From Nitrospirota bacterium (lineage in GTDB: Bacteria; Nitrospirota; Thermodesulfovibrionia; SZUA-242), in assembly GCA_027021335.1 (NCBI GenBank), contig JALUUO010000069.1, positions 1-37,379 of the forward strand: a stretch of 37,379 bases of DNA, read 5' to 3'. A program made the translations under genes and the position numbers. The notes under the pieces are model-generated. The model saw nothing but the letters and a program-made list of their open reading frames with translations, ran no database searches and was not told the origin of the DNA. This document shows positions 1,241 through 13,173 of this stretch, in pieces (position 1 is the stretch's first letter; the number at the start of each line of letters is the position of its first letter).

Positions 1241-1285
1241 AAAAATCAAGGGGAGCGGACCGTCGGCCTGCTCCCCTTGATTTTT
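1241..1285 (-). terminator. Rho-independent terminator of the 1284..2420 gene
   Basis: Perfect 16-bp inverted repeat AAAAATCAAGGGGAGC / GCTCCCCTTGATTTTT with 13-nt loop; T-tract on either strand; overlaps the TAA stop of the minus-strand gene. Confidence 0.85.
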
Positions 1286-2420
1286 ACTGAGTGTTATACG
1301 GCTTAATAGTTTCTTTAGTTGTTTCTTCCCCTGGATGACCTGTTTTTTTAACTCCGTCATCCAGGCAGCTAAAGCCGTTAAAGCCTATCCCCCCGTCACA
1401 GTCATCAACCACATCCACAGTTAAACTCCTGGTGTCATGTCCGGCATATGTTGCGTTAGGGCTTGCCTGCTGGAGCGTGCCAAGAGAAGCGTGATAATTT
1501 TCAGCGCCTGATGTCCATAAATAATCACCGTTAGGCAATGTCAAACTGAATTTATAGTGGGTTACAACATTATTTGGAGGGGTATCAGCAGAGTCACAAA
1601 AATCTGCCGTTGCTAAATCATGCAGGGATACAGAGCCTATACATGTATTTAAAACCGGGGCATAGCTTATTGCACTATTGCCGGGCAGCGTCGGCTCCAG
1701 AATGGAAACGATGAAAGAGACCTTGTTAGTAAATGTTTCCGTATAGCCATCCTTATCAGGAGCGTAAGAGATGATCTGCGGCGGCATTGTTTTATCTCCG
1801 TAGTTGGACCACCTGGGAAGCCCCGTGGTGTTCCACTCATACATGCCGCCGAAACCGCCATCCGGGGCGCCATCGGCATCAATATTAAAAAGCTTCGAAA
1901 AGTATCCGCTGGTCCCGGTTCTGGCATTGTAGAATGTTTGATCGTCCATCCAGTCAGACATATAATAACTTCTGTAAGCCGTGCCGCTTATAAGGTATAT
2001 TTCCGTATCAAAATCTATTGTGCCTGCAGCAAGCAACTCCTCGATAAGAACCCTGACCAGCGTCTCGTCCTCCGGCGGGCCAGGCACAACTCTTTTAACA
2101 CCAGCATACCAGTAAGGGATATTAAACGGCAGCCTGGCTGCATCAGGCACGCCGCTTACAACCCACTTCGGAACACCGTTATATGCATCAGGATCAGTAC
2201 ACACACCATTGCTGGAGTCATTCCAGGGGCGCCCGCATCCATAGTATTCATCAGCAGTACGGGTATCGAAGATGACTCCGGCCGAACCAACCGCTGTAAG
2301 CTGATCGTAAGCCACTCTGGCCGAGACACTCTTAAAAGACGTTTTGGTCAATGCGGCACCTGCCGGATGCGGAGTAAAAATAAGTAGTAGCATAATCATC
2401 AATAACCGTTGTTTTTTCAT
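1284..2420 (-). CDS. Secreted rhodanese-like paralog with active-site Cys replaced by Ser
   Basis: Signal peptide MKKQRLLMIMLLLIFTPHPAGA; aligns along its length with the 1..1083 product (VIFDTRTADEYYGC, LPFNIPYW, AAGTIDFDTEIYLISGTAYRS, FYNARTGTSGYFSKLFNIDADG). Confidence 0.85.
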   Translation of the reverse strand: MKKQRLLMIMLLLIFTPHPAGAALTKTSFKSVSARVAYDQLTAVGSAGVIFDTRTADEYYGCGRPWNDSSNGVCTDPDAYNGVPKWVVSGVPDAARLPFNIPYWYAGVKRVVPGPPEDETLVRVLIEELLAAGTIDFDTEIYLISGTAYRSYYMSDWMDDQTFYNARTGTSGYFSKLFNIDADGAPDGGFGGMYEWNTTGLPRWSNYGDKTMPPQIISYAPDKDGYTETFTNKVSFIVSILEPTLPGNSAISYAPVLNTCIGSVSLHDLATADFCDSADTPPNNVVTHYKFSLTLPNGDYLWTSGAENYHASLGTLQQASPNATYAGHDTRSLTVDVVDDCDGGIGFNGFSCLDDGVKKTGHPGEETTKETIKPYNTQ

Positions 2421-2530
2421 TAAAAAGGCATAAATCCTAAAGCAAGCACATAAGTTCTTTCAATAAAGAAATGAGTTTGATTAATCGCCCAGGACACAGG
2501 TCAGGATCTGATAATATACATAATCTAAAA

Positions 2531-2549
2531 CAAGCAACACCCATGCCAA
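2531..2549 (-). promoter_or_regulatory. Sigma54 (-24/-12) promoter upstream of the 1284..2420 gene
   Basis: Minus strand TTGGCATGGGTGTTGCTTG: consensus YTGGCACG-N4-TTGCW with one mismatch; GG-N10-GC spacing exact; about 110 nt upstream of the ATG at 2420. Confidence 0.75.
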
Positions 2550-2667
2550 ATCTATAACTAATTGAAATTACAAAGATTTTTTAAGACAACAACTTTTACA
2601 CCCCCATAAAGTGTTAATTTTACCAACACCAAGAGCCATGCACTATTTTCACTTATAAAACAATATG

Positions 2668-2895
2668 TTACAAGAAACAGCCTTAAAAAGAGCCTAATAA
2701 TTAGGCAATTTTTAGCTCATTACAAGAAAAAAACAGTAAAAAAGTGTAAAATTTTCCGACATCAAAACCTGCCTGTTAATTTCATTTAAAAAACAGCAAG
2801 TTACAAGAAAAGCTACCAAAAACTGCCTAGTTTCTAGGCAGTTTTTGGCTTATTTAAAAGGTTAAACAACAAAAAAAGTGTAAAATTTTCCGACA
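2668..2895. repeat. Two diverged tandem copies of a ~134-bp unit (24-bp direct repeat + hairpin + TTACAAGAAA boxes)
   Basis: AAAAAAGTGTAAAATTTTCCGACA occurs identically at 2738..2761 and 2872..2895; TTACAAGAAA at 2668, 2720 and 2801; hairpins at 2679..2717 and 2811..2850. Confidence 0.85.
2816..2848. repeat. Perfect 15-bp inverted repeat, 3-nt loop
   Basis: CCAAAAACTGCCTAG-TTT-CTAGGCAGTTTTTGG. Confidence 0.9.
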
Positions 2896-2917
2896 ATAAA
2901 ACAGAGCTAAGAGATTA

Positions 2918-3784
2918 TTATCTCTTCTTCCTCAGTTCCGCATCTATTATGGCCTTAAATCCATCAAGGGAACGATTTCTAAGCCTTATTCCATTTATAA
3001 AGATAGTTGGAGTTCCGGTCACCCCAACCATAGAGGCATCCTTAACATCCTTGGAAATAGCCCTCTGATGTTTCGGGTCTTTAAGGCTTGCGACAAAGGC
3101 CTCCATATCAAGGCCGAGTTCCCTGGCAAAGTCCAGGAATTTCTGGTCCGACAGGTTTCTATAGTCTGCAAATATCTTTTCGTGGTACTCCCAGTACTTT
3201 CCCTGCTCTCCGGCGGCCAGAGCGGCAACAGCCGCAGCACGCGCAAATTTATGACTGCGAATAGGATAGTTCTTGGCTACAACTTTGACCTCATTAGGAT
3301 ATTGCTCCAGCACCTGCTGAAGTAACGGCACAAGCCGCGCACAGTAAGGTCATTGAAAGTCTTCAAAAACCGCAATTACAACCGGAGCATCAGCCGGCCC
3401 AAGAAACGGAGATCCTTTAACATCAATCTGATAAAGAATCTTAAGGTTAATTACGGAAAGGGTTTTCCCGCTTGCGTTGGCCAGAAAAAGCCTGTCGCCT
3501 TTAGGAGAGACGGTGATGCTGTCAACTCCACGATCCACGGGAATCTGGTCAACAACAGCTTTTTTAGCAGGCGAATACAGCAGAACCTCACCAGGGGTCA
3601 GAATATAAACCCACTTACCATCAGCCGAAGAAGCAACATCAAGCGGTTTTTGTTCTATGTTCAACGTGGACTGAAGATTCCATTGCACATCCGCATGAAC
3701 CCCGGCAGGCATCAAGCCGAAAACTGCAAGAAACAGAAAACAGGATAAAACTAGATACATTCCACTACTACTACTGCGTTTCAT
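2918..3784 (-). CDS. Secreted selenoprotein: N-terminal YVTN/beta-propeller-like segment fused to DsbA-like thioredoxin domain with U-P-Y-C active site (UGA at 3350..3352 read as Sec)
   Basis: ORFs 3350..3784 and 2918..3331 are in the same frame, split only by TGA: ...GSPFLGPADAPVVIAVFEDFQ-[TGA]-PYCARLVPLLQQVLEQYPNEVKVVAKNYPIRSH...GVTGTPTIFINGIRL. FEDFQCPYC is the DsbA-family active-site context; cis-Pro motif TGTPT present; SD GGAGG before the ATG at 3784. Confidence 0.88.
3305..3322 (-). promoter_or_regulatory. Candidate bacterial SECIS element of the DsbA-like selenoprotein
   Basis: mRNA CUUCAGC-AGGU-GCUGGAG: 7-bp stem (one U-G), apical loop AGGU with G at position 2; 34 nt between UGA and loop. 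Confidence 0.65.
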
Positions 3785-12357: not shown

Positions 12358-13158
12358 ATGCAGAATAAACCGTTAGACTTAAGAGATATGGTTCGCAAAG
12401 ATTACGCTGCCGTTGCCCAAGGGCTGGATAGCTGCTGTCTGCCATCCAGTTGCTGCGGCGCTGAGGCTGATATGGAAAGCCTGCTGGAAACCGGCAAACA
12501 TCTTGGATACAGCGAGGAGGAGCTTAAACTTGGCCTGGGTGAGGCGAACCTCGGCCTGGGTTGCGGAAATCCGCAGGCAATAGCCGAGATTAAACCTGGT
12601 GAGGTTGTTCTTGATCTTGGAAGCGGTGCCGGGTTTGATGCCTTTCTGGCCGCAATGGCTGCTGGAAATTCCGGCCGTGTAATCGGGATCGATATGACGC
12701 CAGAGATGTTAAGTAAGGCAAGAAGCAATGCCGAAAATCTGAATGTCCCGAATGTTGAGTTTAGACTTGGAGAAATCGAGCACCTGCCGGTTGCCGATAA
12801 TTCGGTTGACGTGATCATCTCAAACTGCGTAATCAATCTTTCTACCGACAAGCAGGCGGTTTTCAATGATTCCTACAGAGCGCTTAAGCCTGGAGGCAGG
12901 CTTGCCATCTCAGATATTTTAAGAGGCGGGGAGCTTCCTCAGGAAATTAAAGCGGATCCGGCTGCCTACAGCGGTTGAATAACCGGAGCGGTCTCCGTGG
13001 AGACCATGAGGCAGTACTTGGAAACAGCAGGATTTGAAAATATTATATTTATCAACAAGAAAAACAGTGACGAAATAATCAAGAACTGGAACTTTGGTGA
13101 AGGTGTGGAAAACGCAGTGTTTTCAGCCTATATAAAAGCGGTCAAGCCATATAATTAA
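12358..13158 (+). CDS. arsM: ArsM-like arsenite/SAM methyltransferase, predicted selenoprotein (UGA at 12976..12978 read as Sec)
   Basis: GLDSCCLPSSCCG; LGLGCGNPQAIAEIKPGEVVLDLGSGAGFDAFLAA; VISNCVINLSTDK; ADPAAYSG-[TGA]-ITGAVSVETMRQYLETAGFENIIFINKKNSDEIIKNWNFGEGVENAVFSAYIKAVKPYN-TAA. ArsM homologs have Cys at the UGA position. Confidence 0.87.
12990..13005 (+). promoter_or_regulatory. Candidate bacterial SECIS element of the ArsM-like selenoprotein
   Basis: GGUCUC-CGUG-GAGACC: perfect 6-bp stem, 4-nt loop with G at position 2; 17 nt between UGA and loop. Confidence 0.68.
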
Positions 13159-13173
13159 CCTGCCCTTGACTCA

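Follow-up and report, generated by a model that had tools for sequence, protein, structure and literature searches.

The gene at positions 2918-3784 (minus strand) of the 37,379-nucleotide stretch of DNA analyzed here, referred to as the window, very probably encodes a secreted selenocysteine (Sec) enzyme, in other words a selenoprotein in which a two-blade YVTN beta-propeller fragment is joined to a DsbA-fold exchange domain. The most likely role of the protein is thiol/selenol-disulfide exchange in the periplasm. The complete architecture was found in 17 genes of 16 genomes among ~475 searched, and each of the 17 full-length genes contains one TGA, located at the UPYC active site. The carriers come from Nitrospirota and from one further, small phylum.

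Anatomy of the gene

Two open reading frames (3350-3784 and 2918-3331) share a minus-strand frame and are parted by a single TGA (3350-3352). The first-pass annotation had placed this TGA at the first position of the active site, and the alignment bears this out, because the same TGA column is present in the 17 homologous genes, which excludes a chance arrangement. When the TGA is read through, the coding sequence gives a product of 288 amino acids with Sec at residue 145, in the motif FEDFQ-U145-P-Y-C148, and it ends at a TAA (2918-2920); homologues extend over its full length. Residues 1-31 (3692-3784) form a predicted signal peptide of the signal peptidase I type, based on the sequence and the alignment. 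Ala31 is invariant in the alignment of 12 full-length proteins, and no lipobox Cys adjoins the predicted cleavage site in the window protein. The predicted signal peptide with its invariant Ala31 points to export to the periplasm.

The signal peptide is followed by the two-blade fragment (residues 32-122; 3419-3691), whose blades pass directly into the DsbA-like thioredoxin-fold catalytic domain (residues 123-288; 2921-3418). In the catalytic domain, the UGA codon of U145, at position 1 of UPYC, occupies the identical column in 17/17 full-length relatives. The codon of Cys148, the predicted resolving residue of UPYC, lies at 3341-3343 and is invariant in the alignment. The Thr258-cisPro259 pair of a GTPT motif (3008-3013) is also invariant; when aligned to structures of DsbA, it proved to be the cis-Pro loop. 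Because the UGA is read as a stop in annotation, the gene is split, and proteins of this kind have probably been missed or entered as two hypothetical fragments. Just downstream of the gene, a 49-nt direct repeat is present at 2720-2768 and 2854-2902 (80% identical, spacing 134, core AAAGTGTAAAATTTTCCGACA).

Decoding of the in-frame UGA

Does the UGA encode Sec or does it end the gene? The gene displays what is expected of a bacterial selenoprotein: a UGA that aligns with Cys or Sec and after which coding continues, a SECIS element, and a host with the decoding machinery. Evidence of continued coding comes from substitution rates 3' of the UGA. In unsaturated pairs, dN was 0.02-0.12 and dS 0.23-0.96, giving a dN/dS of ~0.08-0.15. 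Codon usage in the same region carries a further imprint. Where 16 genes encode the same residue, the fraction using the same codon was ~0.37-0.46 across most of the gene, 0.70 in residues 146-162, and 0.84 in hairpin 2. This rise in codon identity after the UGA is the mark of an RNA signal overlying the code.

Two hairpins were found by RNAalifold and by direct counting, at +15 to +28 and +31 to +48 from the UGA. The latter is the SECIS hairpin (3305-3322; 7-bp stem, apical loop AGGU). It is the hairpin CUUCAGC-AGGU-GCUGGAG of the first-pass annotation and proved to be real: its loop starts 34 nt after the UGA, and it is conserved with compensatory changes. In this hairpin, 98% of cells were paired, three pairs were changed on both sides, and the loop was AGGU or AGUU in all relatives. 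The proximal hairpin, located between the UGA and the SECIS hairpin (3325-3338; 5 bp), had 92.5% of cells paired and one pair changed on both sides. None of 500 shuffles attained the structure's covariation score, and it was destroyed when the partners were slid. The rules for a bacterial SECIS call for a loop of 3-9 nt with a G in its first two positions, a stem of 4-16 bp, a distance of 16-37 nt from the UGA, and a minimum free energy of at most -7.5 (PMC13188914). The window element agrees with all of them, having a 4-nt AGGU loop with G at position 2, a 7-bp stem, a distance of 34 nt, and an energy of -9.5 kcal/mol. The SECIS hairpin was more stable than synonymous recodings in every relative tested (z ~-2.2 to -3.8). 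The window's own hairpin was weakly stronger than its recodings (z -1.4 to -1.7), and the support from stability is thus at the level of the family. The equivalent hairpin was absent in the Cys homologues.

The host genome encodes SelA (632 bits), SelB (346 bits), SelD (362 bits), and a tRNA-Sec (67.7 bits, above the cut-off) that ARAGORN also calls as tRNA-SeC. The first-pass annotation would have been overturned by a host that lacks Sec machinery, and the machinery is present. A tRNA-Sec-like match adjoining selB turned out to be tRNA-Ser. SelB scored above its cut-off in 11/11 carriers tested and also in most comparison genomes, so its presence is consistent with the reading but does not discriminate. 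The host SelD gene (contig C17, 11652-12575) contains one in-frame TGA itself, so SelD is probably also a selenoprotein.

Could the UGA instead be a true stop, in a decayed or split gene or between separate proteins? Only standard ORF calling splits the gene in this way. In contrast, 17/17 genes share the TGA column and the frame downstream of it is under purifying selection, the upstream half alone lacks a thioredoxin core, and the SECIS hairpin and Sec machinery are in place. A true stop at the site was found in 0/17 genes with the full-length architecture. The first-pass annotation had named homologues with a real stop as grounds for giving up its reading, but homologues have either UGA or Cys. 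A true stop is accordingly very improbable. It had also considered that the site might really be TGC or TGT, misread as TGA. The same TGA recurs in independent genomes from several studies, including the public records L047 and L048, and a sequencing error is hardly credible; the identical TGA in independent genomes rules it out.

A second in-frame TGA is found elsewhere in the window, in a gene at 12358-13161 (plus strand) for an arsenite methyltransferase (NF008823, 339.7 bits; cut-off 263). Reading it as Sec gives the motif U207-ITG, which we take to match the known UxxG class of ArsM selenoproteins. By its sequence, this ArsM is the predicted second selenoprotein of the window.

The catalytic domain

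Residues 123-282 matched Thioredoxin_4 (PF13462; 7e-28, 98.3 bits) and DSBA (PF01323; 9.6e-23, 81.4 bits) in Pfam, both above the gathering cut-offs (23.2 and 25.6 bits). The Pfam scores together with UPYC and the cis-proline Pro259 place the domain in the DsbA/Thioredoxin_4 fold. Solved relatives identified by sequence include BdbD, ScsC proteins, Corynebacterium diphtheriae DsbA, and a thioredoxin-like protein from Silicibacter. AlphaFold modeled the domain with pLDDT mostly >90, and Foldseek returned 3gyk (1.4e-11) for it as well as ScsC and BdbD. Thus, DsbA, BdbD, and ScsC proteins are the nearest to the catalytic half by sequence as well as by fold. The trimeric isomerases alpha-DsbA2 and ScsC (PMC8900818, PMC6450060) are among its nearest structural relatives.

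That Sec-containing DsbA-like folds are already known, as the first-pass annotation stated, is correct: they were first described from the Sargasso Sea (PMC1088965), and a 2026 review (PMC13188914) lists them with the motif UxxC. The window protein resembles DsbA-like form 1 of that review (PF01323) in its DsbA fold, its UxxC motif, a bacterial SECIS just downstream of the UGA, and the existence of Cys homologues. However, form 1 is listed without a propeller module, whereas the window protein has a two-blade YVTN half, and no Cys form of this architecture was found. The best NCBIfam model was NF041057, the Rcas_1661 (seleno)lipoprotein that is DsbG-like in the same review (PMC13188914) and likewise has UxxC. 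It matched residues 119-282, covering positions 75-246 of the model and no YVTN part. NF041057 is a lipoprotein model, whereas the window protein is without a lipobox at the predicted site. The window protein (82.5 bits) and the relatives L047 (84.6) and L048 (71.1) all scored below the cut-off of 190; membership was rejected and the window protein is not filed in the Rcas_1661 family.

The N-terminal half

Residues 39-113 matched the YVTN surface-layer protein 1l0q in a phmmer search (E 2.4e-12). A profile of three sequences strengthened the match (E 1.8e-24), which occurred in several registers, each spanning about two repeats. The YVTN model TIGR03866 was also matched (E 7.8e-5), under its cut-off. 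In the full AlphaFold model, residues 49-113 form seven strands arranged in two blade-like sheets with pLDDT of ~79-91, and the core of the N-terminal half modeled alone had pLDDT of 72-90. Foldseek with this half alone placed 1l0q at the top (8.6e-5), followed by other propellers, with 6r5x as match 16. Residues ~38-46, which precede the first predicted strand, appear to align with the last strand of a preceding 1l0q blade. The module may therefore hold eight strands, enough for two complete blades whose register is permuted, with the extra strand not confident in AlphaFold.

The YVTN/beta-propeller assignment of the first-pass annotation was thus right about YVTN kinship, which is seen in the match to 1l0q by both sequence and fold; its wording needs one correction, in that the half is no whole propeller. 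Closing a ring within one chain takes at least four blades, and the window protein has about two, in ~90 residues. The archaeal surface-layer propeller 1l0q, in contrast, has the same repeat sequence and fold in a full multi-blade chain.

Distribution and relatives

The genomes searched comprised the closest 61, 396 of the phylum, 231 of the class, and the family and phylum of the second carrier; these samples overlap and amount to ~475 different genomes, mostly fragmented assemblies and mostly from one phylum. A scan of the GTDB species collection, which detects close relatives only, was also run. One public record (L047, identical to genome G208 and counted once) comes from the same class as the genome of the window. 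In genome G001, the gene spans two contigs with a common 72-base end. The other carrier lineage, represented by G397 (record L048), is from a phylum sampled by eight genomes, five of which carry the gene. Because this group is a separate phylum, the gene is present in at least two phyla. Genome G110 contains two near-identical copies of the Sec fusion ~3 kb apart (L062, contig C30, 4179-5069 and 7266-8249). Both copies keep the UGA and the hairpin, and dN/dS between them is ~0.1.

No protein with the blade architecture and Cys at position 1 of UPYC was found among the ~475 genomes, so that YVTN-DsbA fusions number 17 with U and 0 with Cys. Most bacterial selenoproteins have Cys versions of the same architecture. 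The lack of a Cys version in the ~475 genomes suggests that the function depends on selenium chemistry. The first-pass annotation had called the architecture unusual; it is no sporadic oddity and recurs as a subfamily with Sec in every member found. No report of a selenoprotein with YVTN repeats was found in the open-access literature, and the word propeller is absent from the 2026 review (PMC13188914). The YVTN-DsbA combination, its Sec-only state in the members found, and its spread over two phyla are apparently unreported.

The same bacteria possess two other groups of related proteins, used for comparison. Members of one group are short selenoproteins (e.g., L038-L041; ~200 aa) with a TGA in a UPHC motif. 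They are secreted and share the DsbA fold and the Sec column with the fusion proteins, but have no blade module, UPHC in place of UPYC, and another SECIS sequence, and form a separate clade. The other group has CPYC, an N-terminus that resembles a coiled coil, and no stop at the site. In a tree of catalytic domains, the fusion Sec group was separate from the short Sec group, and the branch starred in the tree (100/99) parts the fusion group from the Nitrospirota Cys and short Sec forms, with the intrusion of one very long outgroup row. Apparent stop-bearing blade fusions in G040 and G034 were rejected as ordinary full YVTN proteins, and the myxococcal matches L049-L051 as triple DsbA proteins without blades. 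In one genome, the reading frame of a short UPHC Sec-DsbA stays open into a protein resembling di-heme cytochrome c peroxidase (L044, G039:C15, ~1438-3114). The peroxidase-like part opens with a signal-like segment of its own; this may reflect either the loss of a stop or a fusion, and it hints at a redox pairing.

Proposed mechanism and possible role of the blades

How might the protein work? SelB and tRNA-Sec very probably decode the UGA at 3350-3352 as Sec, directed by the SECIS hairpin at +31 to +48; comparative evidence supports the recoding strongly. In thioredoxin-fold enzymes with UxxC or CxxC, the first residue of the motif attacks and the second resolves. By analogy with these enzymes, Sec145 would act as the nucleophile, attacking the substrate or joining it in a mixed selenenyl-sulfide, and Cys148 would resolve.

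One model of the blades is that three or four subunits pool them into a 6- or 8-blade ring that presents several UPYC catalytic domains. Because two blades cannot close a ring, self-assembly would be the simplest way to bury the blade edges. The lectin RSL has two blades per chain. RSL is a trimeric beta-propeller (PMC11883740), two-blade fragments form closed propellers as tetramers (PMC6805158), and Pizza2 provides a precedent for propeller assembly from such fragments (PMC7337062). In 6r5x, itself a Foldseek match, four two-blade fragments combine into a propeller with eight blades. An oligomer of this kind might serve as a disulfide reductase/isomerase that proofreads, like trimeric ScsC and not like the monomeric oxidase DsbA. 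Relatives of ScsC are isomerases when an N-terminal module trimerizes them, and the Salmonella form, which lacks this module, is a monomer without isomerase activity (PMC8900818). This tie between isomerase activity and a trimerizing module makes a reductase/isomerase role the preferred guess. The ScsC, BcfH, and alpha-DsbA2 isomerases share with the window protein the Thioredoxin_4/DsbA fold and an added N-terminal module. However, the ScsC trimerization module is alpha-helical, the active site has Cys, and the oligomer is proven, whereas that of the window protein is a prediction.

A different possibility is that the same selenoprotein is a monomeric oxidase or reductase whose blades are an arm for docking or substrate binding, with a partner, the cell surface, or another propeller protein as the target. 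Conservation is lower in the blade half (mean pairwise identity 42%) than in the catalytic one (59%), and in two genomes of different families the gene lies amid genes for secreted proteins that could be clients. However, the edges of an open two-blade fragment normally have to be buried by partners and the known fragments of this kind self-assemble (PMC6805158), and no conserved neighbor offers itself as a candidate partner. A docking arm is quite possible, if short of probable. An always-Sec disulfide reductase/isomerase assembled via a propeller shared between subunits is a tentative proposal, built on analogy and somewhat doubtful. In the shared-propeller model, the two-blade module might do what a helical stalk does elsewhere, in other words make a DsbA-fold enzyme an oligomeric isomerase. 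If true, selenoproteins would gain a new subfamily, and the ring would be a naturally occurring oligomeric propeller that builds a thiol-exchange enzyme.

Genomic neighborhood

The neighbors of the gene differ between carrier genomes and no conserved gene neighborhood was found among them, so that an assignment of function from operons was dropped. VKOR had no match in the host or in 10 other carriers, which rules it out as a universal redox partner. In genome G118 alone, a secreted protein with DUF4124 and glutaredoxin domains is encoded directly downstream of the Sec fusion (L065, contig C23, 1705-2337, minus strand); in G118, it may act as the redox partner. In G368 and G054, which represent two families (L066 and L067), a PBP_like_2 protein is encoded upstream and an Lcl_C/PEP-CTERM protein downstream, all of them secreted. 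In the window, the gene downstream (1284-2420, minus strand) encodes a secreted Cys-rich protein with a rhodanese-like look and no Pfam or NCBIfam match, which is a possible client of the enzyme.
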